A DNA stretch of 64,000 nt, taken from the NCBI GenBank assembly GCA_017656255.1, contig JACDOE010000001.1, positions 933,205 to 997,204 on the forward strand. Reading direction: 5' to 3'. Origin of the DNA: Bacillaceae bacterium (GTDB taxonomy: Bacteria; Bacillota; Bacilli; JACDOE01). Below the pieces are notes generated by a model. That model was given only the letters and a program-made list of their open reading frames with translations. It was not told the origin of the DNA and searched no databases. Numbering within the stretch: position 1 is the first letter of the stretch; the number at the start of each line of letters is the position of its first letter. Made by a program: the position numbers and the translations under genes. This document shows positions 2,224-55,933 of the stretch, piece by piece.

Positions 2224-3051
2224 TTATAAAAATAATTTTCCCTGATAAACAATGAATAGAATCATCGGAACGACGGTAAGAAGTAAAATATTGATCACCA
2301 TTCCGACCGTGACTAACGGTAAAAAATGCGTGCGATTCCGTGTTCCTTTTTTGGTTTTAAATTGAGCGTAACGTTTCAAAATCTCTTCCTGCTTTTCGAG
2401 CATTTCGATCGCTTTTCCGGAACGTTCGCCCTGTTTAAGAGCCAGACAAAAATGGTCAACCTCAGTTAAATTAATCCTTCTTGAAAAATCATCCAGACAC
2501 ACATTTATTTTTCCTTCGATTTGATATCGTGCTGTCAGTCTAACTACTTCAGACTGAAGCGGGCCTTTCAATTTATGAGAAATCATGACCAGTGTCTCGG
2601 ATAAAGGGACATTTGAACGTAACAAACGTGCAACCGTCTCGATCAGATAGGGTAGTTCTTTAAGAATTTTTTGTTGTCGGGTACGCATTTTAAAGTAAAG
2701 AAACAGATCCAGACTGAAAAAACCCAAAATAATATAAAATGAAACGGCTATCCATCCTTTCTGAAAGGCAAATAGAAAATAAAACAGGAATAGTATGACG
2801 AACTTTAATCTCAGGTATTTCTCAAAATTCAACCGATCAGATTCCCCGGCATTTAAAATCAGTTTTTCAATAATCTCTTTTCTGGGCCACAATCGCTCAA
2901 GTCTCGATATCCAGTTACCTGCTGCAGAGAATCGGGGCTGGTACCATGGATATCTCTTTAACCGTCTATTCCTTCTTACAATTGAATTTATAAACTCGTA
3001 AAGAATGAGACTTGTCGAAACAAACAAAACAGATAAAAGACCCGAAATCAT
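2224..3051 (-). CDS. tadC: Tad inner-membrane platform protein TadC-like
   Basis: About 275 residues with hydrophobic segments near the N-terminus, around residue 90-125 and at the extreme C-terminus, and a type II secretion F domain between them (LPYLIETVARLLRSN, then QGERSGKAIEML). In Tad systems TadB and TadC form the inner-membrane platform above the ATPase. A GTG three codons upstream is possible, but ATG 3051 is better placed after AAGGTG. It follows TadB by a few bases and precedes the Flp pilin. Confidence 0.8.
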   Translation of the reverse strand: MISGLLSVLFVSTSLILYEFINSIVRRNRRLKRYPWYQPRFSAAGNWISRLERLWPRKEIIEKLILNAGESDRLNFEKYLRLKFVILFLFYFLFAFQKGWIAVSFYIILGFFSLDLFLYFKMRTRQQKILKELPYLIETVARLLRSNVPLSETLVMISHKLKGPLQSEVVRLTARYQIEGKINVCLDDFSRRINLTEVDHFCLALKQGERSGKAIEMLEKQEEILKRYAQFKTKKGTRNRTHFLPLVTVGMVINILLLTVVPMILFIVYQGKLFL

Positions 3052-3073
3052 CCCTTGCACCTTCCCACCCCCA

Positions 3074-4006
3074 TTAATCTCCTTCCATCCGTTTCATCCT
3101 TTTTAGCAGGAAGAAAACAATCATGGTAATAACCAACATCATGACCACGGCGACCTTTCCCGCAAACGTTGTGACCAGCAGATTCATCGCCACCGGTTGG
3201 ACTTTTACCATCGAAAAAATCAAAAATACGAATACAGCAAACAAAAAGTAGGAAACTTGAGAGATGGCTGTCACTTCTCCCTGGCGCTCCAGCCTGTTGA
3301 ACTCATGTTCAAAAGATTGATGAATGTAGGAAGAAAGAACTTTATTAAAGTCACCACCATAATGAACCTGAGTTTCTAGGTCGGTGAAAAAATCTGCAAG
3401 TAACCGGTTCTCAATCTTGAGTTTCATATTCTGAAAAATCTCAGAAACGGGAAATCCGTATTTTATTTGATCGTTCATCTGAGAGAGTATTCCTTTTAAA
3501 GGTTCTTTCACATTCTCTGAACACTCTGCAATGGCAACAAGGGGATCACGACTGTTTTGATAAAAATTTGATAGCGTCATGAAAAAGTAGGGTATCTGTT
3601 TCCTTAACTTCCTGTCACGGTAAGATTTCTCCCAGTTAAGCAAAAATACAGGTATTTGATACCCCACGATGAAAAGAAGCAAGGACGCAGCAGGGTTATC
3701 CAGAATCAGAAATGCTCCGGTTCCGGTTATGAGTCCGGTCAGTACACAGATCATTATGAACACGTATTTGTTCAATTTCTGCTTCACACCATAATTTTGA
3801 CCTTTTTGTTCAAGGCGGTGATCCAGATGACGAAAATAATCCTGAACCTTCGGATTCTTCATCAGCAGAATTTCGGTTTTTCTTCCAAATTCTCGAATAA
3901 AGCGAGGGGAAACTCTTTTTCGGAATGACAGACATTGATAGAGTGTAAAACCAATACTTAATCCCAGAAGGATCCACCCCAACCCTTTTAGATCAACGTA
4001 GATCAT
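3074..4006 (-). CDS. tadB: Tad inner-membrane platform protein TadB-like
   Basis: A 310-aa membrane protein with an N-terminal helix, a central pair of helices (about 85-125) and C-terminal helices (about 245-305). The intervening cytoplasmic F domain reads KQIPYFFMTLSNFYQNS and later FFTDLETQVHYGGDFNKVL, as in GspF/TadB proteins. Its ATG overlaps the stop of the TadA gene (ATGA), indicating coupling. It should form the pilus assembly platform with TadC and the ATPase. Confidence 0.82.
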   Translation of the reverse strand: MIYVDLKGLGWILLGLSIGFTLYQCLSFRKRVSPRFIREFGRKTEILLMKNPKVQDYFRHLDHRLEQKGQNYGVKQKLNKYVFIMICVLTGLITGTGAFLILDNPAASLLLFIVGYQIPVFLLNWEKSYRDRKLRKQIPYFFMTLSNFYQNSRDPLVAIAECSENVKEPLKGILSQMNDQIKYGFPVSEIFQNMKLKIENRLLADFFTDLETQVHYGGDFNKVLSSYIHQSFEHEFNRLERQGEVTAISQVSYFLFAVFVFLIFSMVKVQPVAMNLLVTTFAGKVAVVMMLVITMIVFFLLKRMKRMEGD

Positions 4007-5310
4007 CGCAAGTGGACAGCCTTTCTAAACGCCATTTTTTCCTGCAAGGATCCAGATGGTAACATTTTTTCATATTTTTCTCTCCCACTGTGTGAATCAA
4101 TTTTCCATTTCCAGATCGTTCGGGCTTTTATCCTGGATTGGGCCGGATCATAACCACTTACTTCTGCTACTTCAACCACCCTGTGATTAACAATGTGTAT
4201 CACCAGATCCACTGAATCAGATACCATGGTCATCAATTGTGCCGGCTTGAGAGGGGTGTCCGCATACAGCATCAAAAAAGATAATTGAGTTAAAGCTGAC
4301 TCGACGTTATTGGCATGTATGGTTGTTAAACCTCCATCATGTCCCGTTCCAAAAGCCCTGATCAAATTCAAAGCTTCTTTTCCACGTAATTCCCCCAGGA
4401 TGATACGCCGCGGGGCCATGCGCATCGCATTTTTAACCAGATCATCCATTGAAATCTGCCTTTCGTTTTGCTCGGACCCCTTAAGCGTCTCCAGTGACAC
4501 AATATTTCGATGCCAGATCTGCAACTCTTCCTCTTCTTCAATCACAACCAGCCGTTCCAGCGGATGAATATATTCAGTTAGCCCCCTTAACAAAGTGGTT
4601 TTTCCCGAACCTGTCGGCCCCGATATCAAAATGTTTAATCTTGAATCTACATATCTTCCAATTTCACTGGCCAGTTCTTCCGTTAATGTCTTTTTCTGAA
4701 TCAGTTCCTTCATCGTCAACTCCCCGTGTTGATGTTTCCTTATTGTAAAATAGGGAGTTTTGACCACAGGCCGTATTGCTCCGTTAATACGCAATTGATA
4801 ACGGGAATCTCTCGTATCCACAATCGGATTTCTGCGATTTACCTGCGACTTCACCCGGGTTACGATCGAACGAAAATATTCTTCAACCTCCCACTCATCT
4901 TTGAAACGGATTTGAACCGGGATATCCTTTCCACCGGCCACTCGTTTCAAAATATTGTCGTGACCATTGACAAAAATATCTGTTACTAACGGATCATCAA
5001 TTAAAAATTGCAGGATCCCATACCCAAACACTTTTTCCAAAAAAATTTTTCTGATCGTATCCGGTTTAACATAATGGGGAAGTTGCCTCTGATACAGGAG
5101 ATGATCCACTTTTTCTTTCATGACCCCTTCGGACAGTTCTCCTGCATAAACCTGATGAATCAATTGGGGATAATCCATGGAAAGGGATGTGATCAATTGA
5201 TCCACGATTTCCATCATTTGCGGATTCATATAATGGGAATTTGATAAATTGACATAAAACGGGCCATCCGTCACGCTTTCCGGATGATTGAACATGTTGA
5301 TAACCTGCAC
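4003..5310 (-). CDS. tadA: Tad pilus assembly ATPase TadA/CpaF
   Basis: A 435-aa secretion ATPase of the GspE/VirB11 superfamily. Walker A is GPTGSGKTT at about 231-239; the Walker B region is MRMAPRRIILGELRG (about 297-309); the histidine box GTGHDGGLTTIHAN follows. The N-terminal half carries the CpaF-specific domain (LIDDPLVTDIFVNG). Translation starts at GTG 5310, with AGGAGG seven bases upstream. It powers pilin polymerisation from the cytoplasmic side of the TadB/TadC platform. Confidence 0.93.
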   Translation of the reverse strand: MQVINMFNHPESVTDGPFYVNLSNSHYMNPQMMEIVDQLITSLSMDYPQLIHQVYAGELSEGVMKEKVDHLLYQRQLPHYVKPDTIRKIFLEKVFGYGILQFLIDDPLVTDIFVNGHDNILKRVAGGKDIPVQIRFKDEWEVEEYFRSIVTRVKSQVNRRNPIVDTRDSRYQLRINGAIRPVVKTPYFTIRKHQHGELTMKELIQKKTLTEELASEIGRYVDSRLNILISGPTGSGKTTLLRGLTEYIHPLERLVVIEEEEELQIWHRNIVSLETLKGSEQNERQISMDDLVKNAMRMAPRRIILGELRGKEALNLIRAFGTGHDGGLTTIHANNVESALTQLSFLMLYADTPLKPAQLMTMVSDSVDLVIHIVNHRVVEVAEVSGYDPAQSRIKARTIWKWKIDSHSGREKYEKMLPSGSLQEKMAFRKAVHLR

Positions 5311-5321
5311 TTTTGCACCTC

Positions 5322-6431
5322 CTATCCTGTTTTCTTAAGAGGCCAGAACCTTCTGGCTGAATCGATGTCAACAACTGATTGGAAACCCAGTAACTCAAGA
5401 AGCGAATTAAGCGGGGATTCCGAACGGATGTCGTGACCCTGAATGATTTCTGTCAAAGCACCTTCGCTAAGCGTTGCCACCACTTTATGATCCAGGAACT
5501 TTTCAACCTGGGAGACAGGTAAAGAGAGAGAACCTGTATTTTGTAGCAGGATGAAATGGATTCTGGTATCGATCTGATTTTTCTGCAACCAGTCCAAAAA
5601 CCTGATGATAATATCAACATGGTGTGTTAATGGGTGAAAAGGGATAATCAGATCAGTTGCATGAATGAACGCGTACCATGACGGAGCAAACTGAGGATAG
5701 GAAGGAATGTCCGTGATGATTGTCTGTTCTTTGGGCAGGGATTGAAGCCATTTCCAGACCTCCTCAATTTCAGTCGCTCTCCATTTTTCTACATCTACCC
5801 AGTCAAGCTCAGCCGGTAAGATACGTAACATCCCTTTTTGATACTGATAGGTTTCAAGGTTTGATATTGATTTCCCATGCCGTAGATCATGGAGTAGTGC
5901 ATTGATTCCTTTTCTTGAATCAGGCCGAAGCGAAAAATAGGACGAAAATGAGGCCGTAAACGGGTTCCATTCTATCAGGTTAACCTCTTTTTCCCGTCCG
6001 ATTTTCATAGCCAGGTGACAAGCGATCAAAGATTTCCCTACCCCTCCCAGAGGACTGAAAACACAGAGGTTTTGAGGTGTGGCATGATCAAGATCATACA
6101 GATTTAAGTGCTTTTTGCATTCTGAAATACGGGTCCTGCCGTTTCTGATCACGGGAATGTTTCGTTCCTCAACGGCACGTTTCACCTCATCCGATGATGC
6201 CGAATCATCAAGCAGGACGGCAACATGAATCCCCTGCTCAAGATAAGAAGTTAGATGATCCAGATCTCTGATGACGGTAAAATCAGCCCGGTTTTGCGCA
6301 ATATACAGAATCGACGAAGACGGATCCGGTTGATCGGGCACATTTTCCATTAAAATGATTTGCTCCGGATCCAGCCATTTGCTTAAATCCTGATACACGC
6401 TAGCAACGAGGCTAACAACATAACATTTCAT
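5322..6431 (-). CDS. TadZ/CpaE-like MinD-family ATPase
   Basis: A 369-aa protein with a receiver-like N-terminal region (about 1-105) and a MinD/ParA-type P-loop domain. The deviant Walker A reads SPLGGVGKS at about 126-134: the catalytic GKS is kept, but the signature lysine before GG is replaced by leucine. TadZ/CpaE proteins position the Tad machine, often at the pole. The ATG has AGGAGG upstream. A second, more degenerate paralogue is encoded at 7102-8436. Confidence 0.8.
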   Translation of the reverse strand: MKCYVVSLVASVYQDLSKWLDPEQIILMENVPDQPDPSSSILYIAQNRADFTVIRDLDHLTSYLEQGIHVAVLLDDSASSDEVKRAVEERNIPVIRNGRTRISECKKHLNLYDLDHATPQNLCVFSPLGGVGKSLIACHLAMKIGREKEVNLIEWNPFTASFSSYFSLRPDSRKGINALLHDLRHGKSISNLETYQYQKGMLRILPAELDWVDVEKWRATEIEEVWKWLQSLPKEQTIITDIPSYPQFAPSWYAFIHATDLIIPFHPLTHHVDIIIRFLDWLQKNQIDTRIHFILLQNTGSLSLPVSQVEKFLDHKVVATLSEGALTEIIQGHDIRSESPLNSLLELLGFQSVVDIDSARRFWPLKKTG

Positions 6432-6450: not shown

Positions 6451-7095
6451 TCAATCGGTAATCTCTCGACTCAACAAACGAATAGTCCCGGCCTCCAGCG
6501 CATGGTTCAGTACCTCTCCCTGATCTGTTGAAACCTTTAATGTCAAGACCGCTGGAAGATGACTTTTTTCATCCAGTGGTTCCTCTTGCATAGGTTGATT
6601 ATCAATCGAAATCCCTCGATGGTTATAAATATCCACAATCTGCAGATCCTGAAGAATCAACTTGCTGACGCCAGTGTCCTGCTGTTTAAAATAGGCGATC
6701 ACGTCTACGTAATCCCCTTTACGGGGATACCCGCCAATACGATCTAAAGTGACGGGTACATTCATCGTGCGCTCACCTTTCCCGAGAGAAATAGGCTGGT
6801 TTATCCGCAGCTTTTCTTCCCTTATAATTTCTCCGGGTAAAATGTCTGACTTTGTCCATCCAGGTGGATCATGAATCTGAGTCAGCATGCCTTCGTGGTA
6901 ATTGGACTTTTTGATTTTTTTAGCTTTGAGACTATCCGGGTTAATGCTTGTATTCGCCTCAATGAACTGGTCAGCAACATAGACCTTAATCAGGTTCTGG
7001 TCTTCGGGTGCAGGTTGAACAAGATAGAACAGCAATCCGGTTGACAGGGATGCTCCCAGCAAAGCCAGTAAAACGCGGTATTTTTTCTGTAAAAT
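6451..7095 (-). CDS. Flp pilus assembly protein CpaB/RcpC (SAF domain)
   Basis: Type II membrane protein: basic N-terminus, a transmembrane helix, then an SAF/RcpC region (ANTSINPDSLKAKKI, ILPGEIIREEKL, VPVTLDRIGGYPRKGDYVDVI). CpaB/RcpC proteins sit outside the membrane in the Tad complex. The only canonical start with the rest of the frame is TTG 7062, inside the transmembrane segment and without a ribosome site. An ATT codon at 7095 sits six bases after AAGGTGA and restores a normal KKYRVLLALLGA leader, so I place the start there. If TTG is used the gene ends at 7062. Confidence 0.75.
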   Translation of the reverse strand: MLQKKYRVLLALLGASLSTGLLFYLVQPAPEDQNLIKVYVADQFIEANTSINPDSLKAKKIKKSNYHEGMLTQIHDPPGWTKSDILPGEIIREEKLRINQPISLGKGERTMNVPVTLDRIGGYPRKGDYVDVIAYFKQQDTGVSKLILQDLQIVDIYNHRGISIDNQPMQEEPLDEKSHLPAVLTLKVSTDQGEVLNHALEAGTIRLLSREITD

Positions 7096-7101
7096 TTTAT
7101 A

Positions 7102-8436
7102 TCACCTTACTTTTCTAAAAATAGCTTGAAAAAGATTGACCGGGCCTTTATCAATAAATTGATCGACAATAGATTGTGGCAGTATCTGTTTTGACAAAGG
7201 AATAAACGCTTCTTTTAATTTTTCTTTCAAACCAGGATAGTCCCATGCCATTTTCCCCTTCCATAGAGCCAGGTTGTTTTCATGACCCAGTTCCGGAATC
7301 AATGATATGACAGGGATTTTAACCGGTTCATTTTTCTCCCGGTTCCAGATCTCCGCCCATTCCGTGATCATACTTTTATCTGCCTCATCAAACCATCTGT
7401 TGACAATAAAAGAAAGTTTCTGATCCAGCCGATCATAAACGGGTTGTAATCGAGATATGGCATCTGTTTTCTTCAACGGATCTGTATCAGTGATTAGCCA
7501 GACCATATCTGCTTCCATGAGCAAGTGTTCATGAACCGGTTTGTCCCATTCATTTGAAAGATCAACCAGTACAAGTGGCGTCTGTTTTACCTGACGTGTC
7601 AATTTCAAAGAATCTCTTTCCGTCCATGTTCGCTTCAATGGCTGGTTTCCTGCAGGTACCCATTTAACGCCAGATTGTTCCCAATCTGTCCCTTCTTTAA
7701 TTTTTTCTTCAGATTGTATTTGAAGCGCCCAGGGTACCCAGTCTTTCGGACTTTTTTCCGCGCCACCGAGATAGTCAAATAGAATGTTTTGCTCCATGAC
7801 AGGTTCATAAACGGACACTGGCAGGTTCTTCTCTCCAAGAAATCGAGCCAGATTAACTGTAATAAATGTTGTACCACTTGAAGGTGAAAGGTTTCCGATG
7901 ACGATAAATTTAGGTGGAAAAGACACAAATTCGACTTTTTTTGCCTGTTTTTTGTCTTTAATTTCAGTTCTGGATGGCACGCCTGTCAAATTTAAATCTT
8001 CGTTATATCCCTGTCTTAACAGTTCAACGACATGCTTGAAAGCGGGAGGGTTTTTAAGCAACCTGATCAGTTCCTCAGGTTGAAAAAACCCGTTCCAGAA
8101 GATATCCCAGATCCCTCTCTGGATTAAATGCTTTAAGAAAATATCTTCCTCACGTCGCCGGCATAAATAGATGATGCGTATCGGCTCTGATTGTAACCGC
8201 AGCTCCTCAATGATCTCAATCATTTCCCTGTCTCTTCTCTCAGGGCTTTGCAGCGGAATGTCGCCGGGCAGATTATCACTGATGATCAGGACATCAACCT
8301 GATTCTTCTGACATTGCGGAACAATGTGTGTCCGAATATAAACGGTTTTGACAACCTGACCAACAGGTGTCAGAATGTCATTTAACCAGTTGTCCAGTTC
8401 TTCATCCCCGGTTGCAAGTAAAATGTTGTGATTCAT
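7102..8436 (-). CDS. CpaE-like protein with degenerate P-loop
   Basis: A 444-aa protein with a receiver-like N-terminal domain (ILLATGDEELDNWL, then VDVLIISDNLPGD) and a MinD/CpaE-like C-terminal domain. The P-loop position reads GNLSPSSGTT at about 181-190: both lysines of the ParA/MinD motif are gone, so ATP hydrolysis is doubtful. The downstream VLVDLSNEWDKP and VWLITDTDP segments keep the family fold pattern. It overlaps the XRE gene by 4 bp and its stop lies within the ribosome site of cpaB. It is probably a structural or regulatory partner of the TadZ-like ATPase. Confidence 0.6.
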   Translation of the reverse strand: MNHNILLATGDEELDNWLNDILTPVGQVVKTVYIRTHIVPQCQKNQVDVLIISDNLPGDIPLQSPERRDREMIEIIEELRLQSEPIRIIYLCRRREEDIFLKHLIQRGIWDIFWNGFFQPEELIRLLKNPPAFKHVVELLRQGYNEDLNLTGVPSRTEIKDKKQAKKVEFVSFPPKFIVIGNLSPSSGTTFITVNLARFLGEKNLPVSVYEPVMEQNILFDYLGGAEKSPKDWVPWALQIQSEEKIKEGTDWEQSGVKWVPAGNQPLKRTWTERDSLKLTRQVKQTPLVLVDLSNEWDKPVHEHLLMEADMVWLITDTDPLKKTDAISRLQPVYDRLDQKLSFIVNRWFDEADKSMITEWAEIWNREKNEPVKIPVISLIPELGHENNLALWKGKMAWDYPGLKEKLKEAFIPLSKQILPQSIVDQFIDKGPVNLFQAIFRKVR

Positions 8437-8705
8437 CTCATATTTTCCCTGGCAGGAGCCAAAACCGATTTGTTTTTACCGGGAACGGGATGATATTTAT
8501 TCTTTAATTCTTTGACCAGTGTTCGCCTGATTTTCTCACTGCACGGCACCGTTCCGTTTTCAATTCTTGAAATGACACTGTTATGAACACCGGTTAAGTA
8601 GGCCAATTCCATTTGATTTAAATCCAGTTTTTTTCGAGCCAGCATCACCCATTCTGCATCGTTTTCAGGGACAAGGTAATACCAAACACCATGTTTTTCT
8701 TTCAT
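8433..8705 (-). CDS. XRE-family helix-turn-helix regulator
   Basis: A 90-aa protein starting at ATG 8705 after GAGGAGG; a TTG six codons upstream lies inside that ribosome site and is rejected. The helix-turn-helix spans about residues 21-60 (LARKKLDLNQMELAYLTGVH, then NSVISRIENG). No effector domain follows, only a basic tail. Its position inside the tad operon suggests local transcriptional control, but no operator can be assigned. Confidence 0.8.
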   Translation of the reverse strand: MKEKHGVWYYLVPENDAEWVMLARKKLDLNQMELAYLTGVHNSVISRIENGTVPCSEKIRRTLVKELKNKYHPVPGKNKSVLAPARENMR

Positions 8706-8739
8706 TTTCTTTTTCCTCCTCAACTCAAGTTAAATCAGA

Positions 8740-9669
8740 CTAAAAAGAGGCGATGACCCTTTTAAGATGATTCTTTCTATTTCCAAACCAGCCCTTATGG
8801 ATCCCATCTCTTTGTAACAATTTTTCATCTGATATCCACAATTGCATGTATGCACTCTTCGGTGCATGTGATGTCAGATTTGAAATCACTGATTCACTGC
8901 CACAACTCCAGACCAGAATGGGAGTTCTGTCAATCCCTTCTATGGACAAGAAAGATTGAATTTCAGATCTCTTTTGGAACATATCATTCCAGAATTCGAT
9001 TCTTTCTTTCAAAAACGGAACTCCGTCTTTTTCTTGAAGAATTCTTTCGAATATAACCGGAATGGATCCCAGTGACGTTTTTATTACAGCAAACGCAAAC
9101 GGAGATTTTGAATTTTTTTCAATGACCGGAGGCCATACCCATCGGGATAATCTGTCTGTAAGCTGTAACTGATGCCGGATTTCATTCAATGCTGCAAATT
9201 TTTGCAGTTGTGCCACACCACCACGGGTAATAAAACGGGGATCCGGTATATCGTGGTGTCCAAACATATGAAAAAGCACCAGATAACCGCCGTAAGATAA
9301 AGACCAGCCGGTGTAATGAATTATTGAATCTGTAAATGGCGTTTGAACAATCCACCGATCCAGCAATCCTGTTTTTTCAAGGTAGTGTAATCGTTTGGAC
9401 AAGGGTTTACCAGAAAGAATATCTTTGACTCTGATCTGAAATTGTTTTTCCGTTAAAAAACAGGCTTGTCCAGCGACACGAATCAAATCAAGGTCCTGTT
9501 CTGTGATCATACCTTTTTTAAGCTTTTTTTCAATTTGATTAAACATATAAACAGGGTGTCTTAACAGAGACGTGATTTTCCCATTCAGACAGGGGTTGTC
9601 AAAGTATGGAACCGACCCTTCTTTCGTCAGAAACACTTTTCCTTTTTTTCCTCCCTGAATGGTATTCAT
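8740..9669 (-). CDS. hypothetical protein, replication-relaxation-like
   Basis: A 309-aa soluble protein whose ATG overlaps the S1-gene stop by 4 bp. Its N-terminal third looks like a winged-helix region (LIRVAGQACFLTEKQFQIRV, then RLHYLEKTGLLDRW), followed by an alpha/beta region. The layout recalls the replication-relaxation family of Gram-positive plasmids and conjugative elements. I cannot confirm that family by eye, and no catalytic residues stand out. Conservation next to tad genes would tell whether it belongs to the pilus or is left from a mobile ancestor. Confidence 0.45.
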   Translation of the reverse strand: MNTIQGGKKGKVFLTKEGSVPYFDNPCLNGKITSLLRHPVYMFNQIEKKLKKGMITEQDLDLIRVAGQACFLTEKQFQIRVKDILSGKPLSKRLHYLEKTGLLDRWIVQTPFTDSIIHYTGWSLSYGGYLVLFHMFGHHDIPDPRFITRGGVAQLQKFAALNEIRHQLQLTDRLSRWVWPPVIEKNSKSPFAFAVIKTSLGSIPVIFERILQEKDGVPFLKERIEFWNDMFQKRSEIQSFLSIEGIDRTPILVWSCGSESVISNLTSHAPKSAYMQLWISDEKLLQRDGIHKGWFGNRKNHLKRVIASF

Positions 9670-10493
9670 GATTCTTCCCTCCCGTGTGGATAATGGACAA
9701 TAATTCCCCGCCCTTTTCTACGTTCCGCATCCATTCGCATGATTTTGACAGTCACTTTCATACCGGCTACAGGTTCCGGAAGGCGCCGGGCAACATTACA
9801 TAAAATCTCGAGGCCTTCCCCCAGTTTGACAAATACACCGTGTTTGGGATGAACCGTTGTAACTTCCCCCAGATGGAGATCGTCAGGTTTATAAATTTTT
9901 TCTGCTTCCGGCCAGGGGTCCTGAAGAACGGCTCTGCGTGATACCCGAACACGTGATTGGGATGGATCAAGTTCCACAATTTTAACCCTGACCTCCTTTC
10001 CAAGCCGACTCACATCCTTCAGTTCTTTATACTCATAGCTCCAGTCCCGAATATGTAAAAATGCAGTCACGCCATCAATTAACACAAACAGGTTTTTTGA
10101 ACGTTCATTCCAGCCACTGATACGTCCGGTCACCACCTGTCCCACCCGGGCACATCTCCAAAAATTCTCCTGGAGTTTATGCAGCGCTTTTACCCGATTG
10201 ACTTCAACCACACCGTCTACGGAAGAAGACAGTGATGTAATCACAACCTGTACCCTGTGTCCAACAAAACCGGCAAGGGATCTGAACTGGTGAAAGTCGA
10301 AATCTTTCGCTTTACAAATTCCCTGAATGCCATCCAGATCGATCAAAGCATACTCCTGCTCATCATCTCCCTCTATTCCTCGGTGAATCGAACAAACCGT
10401 TCCTGCGATCACCTCCTGTTTTGAAAAACAAAAATTTAAATAATCCCATCTGCTCTTCTCAATCCTCTCATTTGTTTGCATCGCCTCTGTCAT
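9666..10493 (-). CDS. S1-domain RNA-binding protein
   Basis: ATG 10493 is chosen because AAAGGAGATG precedes it; the longer GTG frame runs into the leader hairpin. About 275 residues with apparently three S1/OB-fold modules: an N-terminal divergent one (QEVIAGTVCSIHRGI), a middle one (VGQVVTGRISGW, then VRVKIVELDPSQSRVRVS) and a C-terminal one (LHLGEVTTVHPKHGVFVKLG). It should bind single-stranded RNA. As first gene of the tad operon, just after a terminator-like leader hairpin, it is a candidate for controlling its own transcript; that is inference. Confidence 0.75.
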   Translation of the reverse strand: MTEAMQTNERIEKSRWDYLNFCFSKQEVIAGTVCSIHRGIEGDDEQEYALIDLDGIQGICKAKDFDFHQFRSLAGFVGHRVQVVITSLSSSVDGVVEVNRVKALHKLQENFWRCARVGQVVTGRISGWNERSKNLFVLIDGVTAFLHIRDWSYEYKELKDVSRLGKEVRVKIVELDPSQSRVRVSRRAVLQDPWPEAEKIYKPDDLHLGEVTTVHPKHGVFVKLGEGLEILCNVARRLPEPVAGMKVTVKIMRMDAERRKGRGIIVHYPHGREES

Positions 10494-10524
10494 TTTGTCA
10501 TCTCCTTTAAAAGATTTAATATAT

Positions 10525-10575
10525 AAAAAACGCACGACTAGACAGGAGAGTTATGCTCTCCAATCTGGTCGTGCG
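10525..10575 (-). terminator. leader hairpin with T-tract (putative attenuator)
   Basis: Inverted repeat: CGCACGAC at 10531-10538 pairs with GTCGTGCG at 10568-10575 and GGAGAG (10545-10550) with CTCTCC (10556-10561), giving roughly 20-bp arms with about two mismatches and a 5-nt loop. On the minus strand the stem is followed by six T residues (10525-10530). It lies between the promoter at 10611-10639 and the S1-gene ribosome site, so it would stop transcription before the operon unless overridden. Confidence 0.75.
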
Positions 10576-10610
10576 TCGTTCGCTCGGACCTAAATGTTAA
10601 ATTTGATATT

Positions 10611-10639
10611 ATTATACACATTCCATCCAGCGTTTTCAA
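10611..10639 (-). promoter_or_regulatory. sigma-A promoter of the tad operon
   Basis: On the minus strand TTGAAA (10634-10639) and TATAAT (10611-10616) are separated by exactly 17 bp. Transcription would start near 10604, giving a leader of about 110 nt that contains the terminator-like hairpin. Confidence 0.8.
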
Positions 10640-10703: not shown

Positions 10704-13058
10704 TTAATACCGCATATCAATCTTCTTATCGGTTTTCCCCTGCAATTGCACCAGCCGCATCATCACCACTGCCGCCTGGGCACGGGTGACATGGCCATCC
10801 GGACGAAACAAGCCGCCGCTTCCGTTCAGGAGTCCCAGTTCCTGGGCGATCAGCACCGCTCCCTTCGCTTCGATCTGATCGGCATCTTCAAACGTCAGCA
10901 GATCCCCTCTCGCATCCAGATAACCGGCCAGTTTGTCATAGCCCAGCATATGCGTCAGGGAAACCGCCAGTTCTTCCCGGGTGATCTGTTTTTCCGGTTC
11001 GAACCGTTTCTGATCTTCGTCAATCCAATAATATTCCAGTGCCGCATTGATCGCATTGTAATATGGACTCTCCGGCGTCACATCCTCAAAGGGTGTACCC
11101 CGATCCCGGATATACCGGTCATAATTGGGCCGAACGGCGCGGACCATCATCTCCAGCCATTCTCCCCGGGTAATGGCCTGATCGGGATAAATCTTAGCCT
11201 GCTCATCAGGCTCGATAATACGGTATTGCACCAGCGTTTCAAGCTCATTTTGCGCCCAGTGGCCCTCGATATCTTTCGGTTTCACCATCTCTTTATCCAT
11301 TTCCGGTGCACCATACCAGCTCGATACCCATTCACCGGACCCGGCATCAATCGCATAGCCTGCATTCAGGCCGTTTTCAAAAACCTGATGGTAAACCAGT
11401 TTGATCACCGGCTCCTGGTAACCTTCCGTGGTCCGGATACCCCGGAATGTCTGATACTGCAGGCGCAGATGCGTATTCTCCAGATATTTTGCTTTTGCCT
11501 CTTCCTCCGTCACCTGCACGTTGAGATCCTTGACCTTCTCCTTCAGATCCGGCGTTCGTTCTACCCGGTAATAGAGAAGCTTTCCGGAAGCGTCCAGTGT
11601 CATGTTCACCCAGTCATTCATCACCGGGATATCCTCATAAAAACGTTGAAATCTATAACGGAAACTATTTGATGACGGTTCAACCGGAACAGTGGCATCC
11701 TGTTTCATCCACTTCAGCTCGTTCATGGCATCAGGATACAGACGGTTCACCAGTTGAATCGCCAGTTTGTCTGCCTGTTCACGGGAGATTTTATCGGCAT
11801 CCTGAGCTTCATCATCAGGTTTCGCCCTATAAAAGCGATTATATTCATACTCAAGTAATTGTCCCGTAATAGCATCCACGACGGCGTAAGATTCAGCAAA
11901 TGGACCCGGTTGGTCGGGATCACGCCAGGTCAGTCGCCATAACTTACCGTAGTCGTCACCTCGCCACGGTGCATTTCCAAGTGTTTGACTGGCCAGTTCT
12001 CGTCCTTCCGGAATCTCGGCTACCTCTTTTACTACCGCAACAGCCTGTTCGGCGCTGATATAGCCATCGTCCCCTTTCGGTTCTAGAGCAGCAAATCTCT
12101 CTTCGGACGCCGGAATTTCCTCATATTGTGGCTGTTCCCCTTCAACCGGATCTCCCGAGTAAGTCAAGAATTTGCCACTCACGGCATCAATCCATCTAAA
12201 CGAAAGGGATTGGTCCGGTCGCCATCCCAGAACCCAGTCCACCTTATTTTCTCCCCGTCTGATAGGTATGTAATGCAGACTGAGATCAAGTGCCTCTTTA
12301 TACTTCTGCTCCGCCTCTTCAAGCGTCAGAGTCGGTTCCAGATCGGGATATTCCGTCGGTCCGGCGGAGTGATACAAGTTTAATACCTTTCCGTTGCCAT
12401 CCACTGTTATCCGGATGGATCGATTCGGTGCCGGAATCCCGTTATACGTTGGAATCAGGTAAAAGGAATACGTCACCGGTCCAAAAAGAGGCTGCTCCTG
12501 AAAATAAAGGTTATTAACAGTGTCGGTTTCTTCACTCAGACTGTCCACCGGTACGGAAGGTACCGCTCTCTGAATAAATTTTTTGGCTATGTCGAGAGCT
12601 TGTTCTCGTGACACTTTCGGTGGATAATAGACCTCACCGATTTCAGCAAGTGGACGATGAATCCCGCCTGTAATAAGATCCCCTGTCATCGCATCCACGC
12701 GACTGCTGAATCCGTAACTGCCGTTGCCATCTTCATACCGCCAGTGAATGTTCCAGTAGTAATGATTGGGATCGAAATCACTAGCTTCTAATTCGGCTCG
12801 ATCCACTTCCGCCTTTTTTAACTCCGGAAATAGCGATTGCAGTTTTTCAACCGCCTGCTCCTGGGTAATCTTTGCTTTTTCCGGGTCGACCTGTACACGG
12901 GCAGCCGCGATCCGTTCCCCTTCGGGTACGACGGTTGATCCGGCACTTGCCTCCCCTGTTCCCGCTGCCCATACACTGCTGTGCAACAGGGATACACAGA
13001 GCGCCGGAATCGCCACCCATTTCGCCATCTGAACCCTTGTTCGATGATCTTTTTTCAT
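10704..13058 (-). CDS. secreted YcdB/PepSY-like protein with SLH domains
   Basis: ATG 13058 follows GGAGGAGG; the 15-codon upstream extension is rejected. The 784-aa protein has a signal peptide (VAIPALCVSLLHSSVWAAG), then repeated YcdB/YcdC (DUF4901/PepSY-like) units, each with an 'ITQEQAVEKLQ / ISREQADKLAI' helix and a 'D-A-x-T-G' strand (VDAMTGDLITG, IDAVSGKFLTYSG, VDAITGQLLEYEY, IDAGSGEWVSS). The C-terminal 180 residues hold three S-layer-homology motifs (DIEGHWAQNELETL, ITRGEWLEMMV, VTRAQAAVVMM), which anchor proteins to pyruvylated wall polymer. PepSY-like modules often inhibit proteases. It is monocistronic. Confidence 0.85.
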   Translation of the reverse strand: MKKDHRTRVQMAKWVAIPALCVSLLHSSVWAAGTGEASAGSTVVPEGERIAAARVQVDPEKAKITQEQAVEKLQSLFPELKKAEVDRAELEASDFDPNHYYWNIHWRYEDGNGSYGFSSRVDAMTGDLITGGIHRPLAEIGEVYYPPKVSREQALDIAKKFIQRAVPSVPVDSLSEETDTVNNLYFQEQPLFGPVTYSFYLIPTYNGIPAPNRSIRITVDGNGKVLNLYHSAGPTEYPDLEPTLTLEEAEQKYKEALDLSLHYIPIRRGENKVDWVLGWRPDQSLSFRWIDAVSGKFLTYSGDPVEGEQPQYEEIPASEERFAALEPKGDDGYISAEQAVAVVKEVAEIPEGRELASQTLGNAPWRGDDYGKLWRLTWRDPDQPGPFAESYAVVDAITGQLLEYEYNRFYRAKPDDEAQDADKISREQADKLAIQLVNRLYPDAMNELKWMKQDATVPVEPSSNSFRYRFQRFYEDIPVMNDWVNMTLDASGKLLYYRVERTPDLKEKVKDLNVQVTEEEAKAKYLENTHLRLQYQTFRGIRTTEGYQEPVIKLVYHQVFENGLNAGYAIDAGSGEWVSSWYGAPEMDKEMVKPKDIEGHWAQNELETLVQYRIIEPDEQAKIYPDQAITRGEWLEMMVRAVRPNYDRYIRDRGTPFEDVTPESPYYNAINAALEYYWIDEDQKRFEPEKQITREELAVSLTHMLGYDKLAGYLDARGDLLTFEDADQIEAKGAVLIAQELGLLNGSGGLFRPDGHVTRAQAAVVMMRLVQLQGKTDKKIDMRY

Positions 13059-13106
13059 ATAAATCCTCCTCCCCCTGAATATGTTATGGCAAAACTTATC
13101 CATTAA

Positions 13107-55602: not shown

Positions 55603-55842
55603 AAAAAAGGACAGAAAAGGGGTACGTATCCGTCCCTTCTCTGTCCTTGGTACCTGAGAGTTACCTTTGCCGACTATCAGAGAACCAGCAAAGTTTCCCC
55701 TTGGGTGGCTCCCGACTTTCAAGGAGCTCTCTCCAGAGTTGCGTCGGGCAGAAGTACTTTTGCCTGAGAGATTCACCCGACCCACTGGTCAAAGGGCTTG
55801 CTCCTTCGGCGCCGCTTAAGTTAGCGATCTCTCCTCCTGCCT
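55603..55842 (-). ncRNA. tandem glycine riboswitch with terminator
   Basis: Minus strand shows two glycine aptamers: the first from about 55840 (GGAGAGATCGC ... GGTGAATCTCTCAGGCAAAAG) and the second from about 55740 (CTGGAGAGAGCTC ... AAAGGTAACTCTCAGG). The expression platform is GGACAGAGAAGGG paired with CCTTTTCTGTCC (55609-55646), followed by six T residues. Such switches turn on gcv genes when glycine is abundant. The switch belongs to the gcvT-gcvPA-gcvPB-lipM operon. Confidence 0.96.
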
Positions 55843-55933
55843 TCATTCGCCCATATAAAATTTTTTGGATCCCCGGGTAATCATTTCGCCCGATTCTGTT
55901 CAAACTATGAAGAAGCCGTCTTCTTTTTACCCT

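Follow-up and report, generated by a model that had tools for sequence, protein, structure and literature searches.

A putative antiterminator hairpin in the leader of a Tad pilus operon, recurring on large Bacillus-type plasmids and on Paenibacillus chromosomes

Results and discussion

The leader of the Tad pilus operon located in the window, i.e., in the whole stretch of 64,000 nucleotides analysed here, very probably is a conditional attenuator in which a small hairpin, P1, acts as antiterminator by competing with an intrinsic terminator for a shared strand. On balance we favor a fuller reading, according to which the leader is off by default and is switched on when P1 is held, most likely by the S1-type protein encoded by the first gene of the operon, although the assignment of the S1 protein as the reader of P1 in this particular operon is tentative. 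Dozens of copies of the element are found on large plasmids of the Bacillus type. The first-pass annotation had proposed attenuation or feedback control but did not recognize the element as one member of a family preceding many other genes.

The Tad operon and its S1-type first gene

All genes of the operon are encoded on the minus strand. The first one (10493–9666) codes for an S1-type RNA-binding protein of 275 amino acids with three OB folds (S1 Pfam match, E = 5e-13). It is followed by a gene (8740–9669) which accompanies the S1 gene in relatives too; its product has no Pfam match here, and its counterparts in relatives are annotated as “replication-relaxation family” or hypothetical proteins. 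Downstream are genes coding for a small HTH_3 protein (8433–8723, Pfam), a TadZ-like ATPase (7102–8436; weak CbiA match, but synteny with Halobacillus plasmid pLDW-31 and a Terribacillus plasmid), CpaB/RcpC (6451–7062), a second TadZ/CpaE-like ATPase (5322–6431), the secretion ATPase CpaF/TadA (4003–5310), and two TadB/TadC-like proteins (2224–4006; T2SSF match for 2224–3060). The S1 match and the presence of the CpaB, CpaF/TadA and T2SSF genes confirm the earlier description of a Tad operon headed by an S1-domain gene. The AlphaFold model of the S1 protein (nine sequences, mean pLDDT of 86.7) comprises three OB folds, and its best matches in the PDB are to ribosomal protein bS1, with consecutive S1/OB-fold domains present. 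However, the best score towards the NCBIfam models of ribosomal S1 was 85 bits, as compared to a cut-off of 624, indicating that the protein is not a bS1 orthologue. Elsewhere in the window, positions 55742–55846 of the minus strand match the aptamer of the glycine riboswitch (RF00504 of Rfam, 69.8 bits).

Promoter, terminator and competing hairpin in the leader

A sigma-A type promoter, TTGAAA-17-TATAAT, is present at 10639–10611 on the minus strand, as claimed before. It matches 11 of 12 consensus bases, is the best-scoring candidate (p = 0.01 versus shuffles) and precedes P1 by 27 nt, presumably placing the transcription start near position 10604 of the minus strand. The intrinsic terminator consists of a hairpin at 10577–10530 and a six-T tract at 10530–10525 (minus strand, –31.4 kcal/mol). 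Its strength, likewise noted in the first-pass annotation, was borne out by folding of the 147-nt leader region, which yielded –42.4 kcal/mol as compared to –22.5 ± 3.3 kcal/mol for dinucleotide shuffles (z = –6.0; z = –4.9 for the transcript strand), with none of 200 shuffles being equally stable. A simple terminator scan missed this hairpin, probably due to the mismatches in its stem. The leader/hairpin sequence occurs once in its genome, and an AAAGGAG ribosome site lies between the terminator and the first gene. As the leader of the window operon contains no ATG from which a leader peptide could start, attenuation coupled to translation is considered unlikely. Upstream on the same strand, a gene for a 799-aa S-layer-homology (SLH) protein (10704–13103, minus strand) ends about 130 nt before the leader hairpin. 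As this gene has no evident strong terminator of its own, the hairpin may end its transcript too.

P1, a hairpin of 24 nt (GGUC-CGA-GCG-AACGA-CGC-AC-GACC; 10590–10567, minus strand; –6.8 kcal/mol), is a nested structure in which the GGUC/GACC pairs enclose the core GCG-AACGA-CGC at 10583–10573, and its 3' arms lie inside the 5' arm of the terminator. A GGTC...GACC pairing had been noticed before as a possible competitor of the terminator, though a weak one; the pairing does exist, but as part of a nested hairpin of this stability it is not negligible. When the upstream sequence was shuffled, no more than 0.8% of the shuffles paired equally well with the terminator arm. The core alone comprises 3 bp and is not significant (p = 0.2), so that the case for P1 of the window leans on the homologues and the enclosing GGUC/GACC pairs; the loop of the core, AACGA, is that of Niallia circulans. 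When folding of the growing transcript was simulated, P1 persisted until about nucleotide 70 and was afterwards replaced by the terminator. With final fold energies of –32.0 kcal/mol for the terminator and –21.1 kcal/mol for a structure in which P1 is kept, P1 is predicted to be about 11 kcal/mol short of competing without help.

Conservation of the leader in front of S1 genes

The window genome was the sole one of its order in the comparison, which rests on distant homologues; no close relatives of its S1 gene were found among the genome contigs searched. Homologues of the S1 gene occur in two settings, either directly behind a VirD4-like gene or at the head of an operon. Many of the operon-head genes are located on large plasmids of Bacillaceae, Planococcaceae and Paenibacillus, and Halobacillus pLDW-31 and the Terribacillus plasmid carry essentially the S1-partner-TadZ-CpaB-TadZ-CpaF operon of the window. 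In 35 of 37 distinct cases, the operon-head S1 gene is immediately preceded by a strong terminator, with energies ranging from –22 to –40 kcal/mol; no leader terminator was found for the remaining two, L012 and L092. In contrast, the mid-operon homologues directly behind VirD4-like genes lack such a leader. The hairpin, for which loss in relatives that keep the operon had been named as refuting evidence, is thus retained where the S1 gene heads an operon. In one genome, an intact S1 gene is accompanied by a second, degenerate copy interrupted by a stop codon (L067; G142:C1:2471256–2471618).

The order promoter, P1, terminator, gene recurs in the 35 distinct operon-head S1 genes, down to an identity of about 25%. 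In the leaders of the relatives, the 5' arm of the terminator is preceded by a short copy of the 3' arm, which forms P1 with the start of the 5' arm. P1 of the relatives is 13–15 nt in length and has about 4 bp and mostly a 5-nt loop, as exemplified by TGGG-AACGA-CCCA of Niallia, CGGG-AAAAA-CCCG, AGAGG-GAGCA-CCTCT of a P. polymyxa plasmid, and AACGG-AAGCA-CCGTT of Cytobacillus solani. Since its 3' arm is contained in the 5' arm of the terminator in the 35 S1 leaders, P1 and the terminator are mutually exclusive. The mean P1 pairing score of the S1 leaders, 11.3 as compared to 6.5 for shuffled upstream sequence, exceeded those of all 1000 shuffled sets. The leader thus combines the two features of an intrinsic attenuator, namely, a promoter upstream of the leader terminator and a conserved, mutually exclusive pairing, and the earlier proposal that attenuation in the leader governs the whole operon appears well supported by the conserved terminator and the conserved competing pairing.

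A family of elements on plasmids and Paenibacillus chromosomes

Scans of whole plasmids revealed the same element in front of TadZ-like, replication-relaxation, VirD4 and HTH genes. Of 408 terminator-like hairpins on plasmid pPPM1a of P. polymyxa, 16 are copies of the element whose loop is AAGCA or GAGCA, as compared to none of 569 such hairpins in 400 kb of the chromosome of the same strain (Fisher p = 7e-7). On a Rossellomorea plasmid, the element separates fliE from fliF within a flagellar operon and would act as an intra-operon attenuator (L273; CP128836.1, record 166607–166657). In roughly 880 kb scanned of the window genome, the only further matches were chance matches in coding regions.

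Paenibacillus genomes were searched with the pattern GGAAGCACC-N(12-42)-GGTGCTTTTT, using the reversed pattern as control. Matches, mostly chromosomal, were present in 75 of 75 genomes (reversed control, 0): five genomes with an operon-head S1 gene, which is located on a plasmid, contained 6–9 matches each, and the other 70 genomes contained 1–3. On the chromosomes, the element is found in the leaders of a complete Tad operon and of genes for an HRDC-domain protein, a coiled-coil protein and giant secreted proteins. Two such loci (L222 and L226) comprise complete Tad operons (TadZ, CpaF, TadB, TadC) with the same attenuator, the first gene of which is not an S1 gene. At two others (L223:6996–8003 and L228:3920–4924), the element is part of the leader of a gene whose product, a conserved protein with an HRDC domain, has about 335 aa. 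Recurrence in front of the S1 gene of distant bacteria and in many copies on the plasmids suggests an undescribed system which switches on pili and plasmid genes together.

Covariation, promoters and the upstream gene

For an independent test of the pairing, 40 plasmid sites were picked only by GAAGCAC...GTGCTTTT, blind to pairs 2–4 of P1; loop and closing G-C are part of this pattern, and their invariance in the set is no evidence. Pairs 2, 3 and 4 form in 39, 38 and 36 of the 40 sites, respectively (shuffles: 52, 44 and 41%), with several compensatory pair types. The covariation score of the aligned set was 0.80, which 0 of 500 shuffles reached, as compared to 0.19 for shuffles; slid versions of the alignment scored 0.18 at most. 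Among 16 chromosomal Paenibacillus sites selected only by the Paenibacillus pattern given above, blind to pairs 3 and 4, these pairs form in 15 and 13 sites, respectively (shuffles: 49 and 53%). In nearly all of the 40 plasmid sites, a candidate gene start is found some tens of bases past the T tract. An outer helix P0 between the 5' end of the leader and the sequence following the T tract was significant in a set of 81 sites but was not replicated in the 40 independent ones, and was rejected as a feature of the family in general. Several S1 and chromosomal leaders (e.g., L072, L087, L100 and L230) can form 6–10 bp between their 5' end and the sequence right after the T tract.

These data bear on the view that the hairpin is a plain terminator of the upstream SLH-protein gene (10704–13103) and that P1 has arisen by chance. 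The position of this gene, whose end lies on the same strand at a distance of about 130 nt, with no other strong terminator listed there, would agree with such a role, and the element of many relatives closely follows the end of a VirD4-type gene. However, a near-consensus promoter lies between the SLH gene and the hairpin, as it does upstream of P1 in most of the 81 sites; these sigma-A promoters mostly precede P1 by 20–50 nt (median 27), and their mean score exceeded that of every shuffled set. Moreover, the nearest upstream ORF is divergent in 13 of the 40 sites, which argues that the element is not simply the terminator of the preceding gene, and P1 covaries. We consider a plain terminator quite improbable.

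Proposed mechanism and candidate readers of P1

In the attenuator model preferred here, RNA polymerase would start near 10604, and the first 38 nt of the transcript would fold as P1. About 35–40 nt later, the terminator hairpin, which needs the 3' arm of P1 for its own 5' arm, would displace P1, and transcription would stop at the six-T tract, leaving the operon off by default. If a factor bound and held P1, the base of the terminator could not form, the remaining top would be kept away from the T tract, and the polymerase would continue into the S1 gene and the rest of the Tad operon. Of the factors that might hold P1, the S1 protein itself is the likeliest, which would result in a self-activating switch; the other plasmid genes bearing the element would constitute the regulon of S1. 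The promoter, the terminator, its overlap with P1, and the conservation of P1 with its compensatory changes are observed, whereas we infer three elements of this scheme, the direction of control, the holding of P1 by a protein, and the identity of this protein with S1.

As to the direction, the overlap of P1 with the terminator and the conservation of P1 point to activation by antitermination rather than to negative feedback. Autogenous control is common among genes of the ribosomal-protein type, and the operon-head gene encodes a relative of ribosomal protein S1, which would agree with an autorepressor binding the leader and favoring the terminator in the manner of ribosomal-protein feedback. 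However, the terminator by itself exceeds the alternative fold in stability by a wide margin, leaving little to repress, and the conserved part is the antiterminating hairpin; autorepression therefore appears improbable.

As to the identity, the S1 gene lies immediately after its leader, and the plasmids carrying it also bear the additional copies. Leader-bearing S1 proteins fall into two clades, with a single change of loop type on the tree; taken alone, this says little, since gene and leader are inherited together. Dispersed elements with loop AAGCA were therefore counted on whole plasmids: seven plasmids with clade-2 S1 genes contain 7, 2, 15, 5, 6, 7 and 9 of them, and nine plasmids with clade-1 S1 genes contain 0, 0, 0, 1, 0, 0, 0, 0 and 1. 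Cytobacillus and Rossellomorea hosts are found in both plasmid groups. The loop type thus appears to track the type of S1 rather than the host genus, which fits a plasmid-encoded reader travelling with S1; the match may also reflect shared descent, as the plasmids within each S1 clade are related. The S1 feedback suggested by the first-pass annotation hence seems plausible, with circumstantial support from the match of loop and S1 type, although its sign looks activating rather than classically negative.

Paenibacillus chromosomes without this S1 gene keep conserved AAGCA-loop sites, so that S1 cannot be the only reader, and another one must act there. The HRDC-domain protein is a candidate, as a putative nucleic-acid-binding protein, for the chromosomal reader. 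As a universal reader it was rejected, because it is absent from the window genome, where only a RecQ matches. The chromosomal sites would also be compatible with a real attenuator whose P1 is read throughout by a host factor, either a chromosomal RNA-binding protein or the polymerase together with NusA, the S1 protein being otherwise employed; the plasmids would then be borrowing a host switch. Since the loop type on Bacillaceae plasmids goes with the S1 clade and not with the host genus, and the HRDC protein is lacking in the window genome, we regard a host factor as rather unlikely.

Generalizing the S1-dependent model, a protein with three OB folds, encoded on large Bacillales plasmids and on the chromosome of the window, would act as a sequence-specific antiterminator of a new class which reads a small pentaloop hairpin, activates its own operon and controls a plasmid-wide regulon at the RNA level; this proposal is still more tentative than the role of S1 in the window operon. 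With the same reservation, the regulon might comprise dozens of leader terminators of genes for pili, DNA transfer, flagella and surface proteins. If S1 is the factor, self-activation of the operon would be in keeping with pilus formation as an all-or-none decision. No common control is known for the many operons found on large plasmids of Bacillaceae, Planococcaceae and Paenibacillaceae; a leader switch that recurs there, has a conserved loop and lies next to the gene of a candidate reader would explain the coordination of pili, transfer and surface genes.

Comparison with known systems

In the leaders controlled by the ANTAR proteins EutV, NasR and AmiR, a small hairpin shares sequence with the 5' arm of the leader terminator, and one regulator serves several terminators, some of them within operons (PMC3369931). 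ANTAR targets, however, consist of two hexaloop hairpins with A1 and G4, whereas the element described here has one hairpin with a 4–5 nt loop and a closing G-C; an ANTAR-like second hairpin directly upstream showed no significant excess (22 of 300 shuffled sets scored as high), and neither an ANTAR gene nor a PRD protein is encoded within the window operon. The RAT of BglG, SacY and LicT resembles P1 in being a hairpin which excludes an overlapping terminator, stabilized by a protein in RAT and presumably by a protein here, but RAT comprises 29–30 nt, as compared to 13–15 nt for P1 of the relatives and 24 nt for P1 of the window. LoaP acts on the dfn and mln leaders, in which a small hairpin precedes the intrinsic terminator of long operons (PMC12691694). 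It is a NusG paralogue and its target has a UNCG loop; neither was found here, the window genome (98.9% complete) encoding only one NusG. Rfam contained no family matching the element at gathering score, only chance-level matches. Despite the logic of a mini-hairpin overlapping a terminator, which ANTAR and RAT leaders share (PMC3369931), control of the leader by an ANTAR, BglG/LicT-type or LoaP-type protein or by a riboswitch is thus very improbable.

Antitermination at the start of long operons of Gram-positive plasmids is known from conAn of pLS20-type plasmids (PMC8955417). While conAn is a pair of protein and RNA effecting processive antitermination of the conjugation operon, every leader of the present family has its own switch. 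The boxB element of phage lambda, which is recognized by N in concert with Nus factors, has a purine pentaloop on a short stem and does not overlap a terminator. P1 differs from it in this overlap; the P1 loops of two S1 leaders (L081 and L082), GAAAA and GAAGA, are boxB pentaloops.

Neither plasmids nor pili nor Paenibacillus are mentioned in the main text of a survey of premature terminators published in 2010 (PMC2965389). A description of the P1–terminator element was not found among open-licence papers, an absence which is no proof of novelty. Judged by its sequence, the switch composed of leader terminator and P1 is known attenuator logic, as in ANTAR and BglG/LicT systems, implemented with differing RNA features. 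It would add a new and very small antiterminator to the short list known from Gram-positive bacteria, and it supplies a concrete search pattern.
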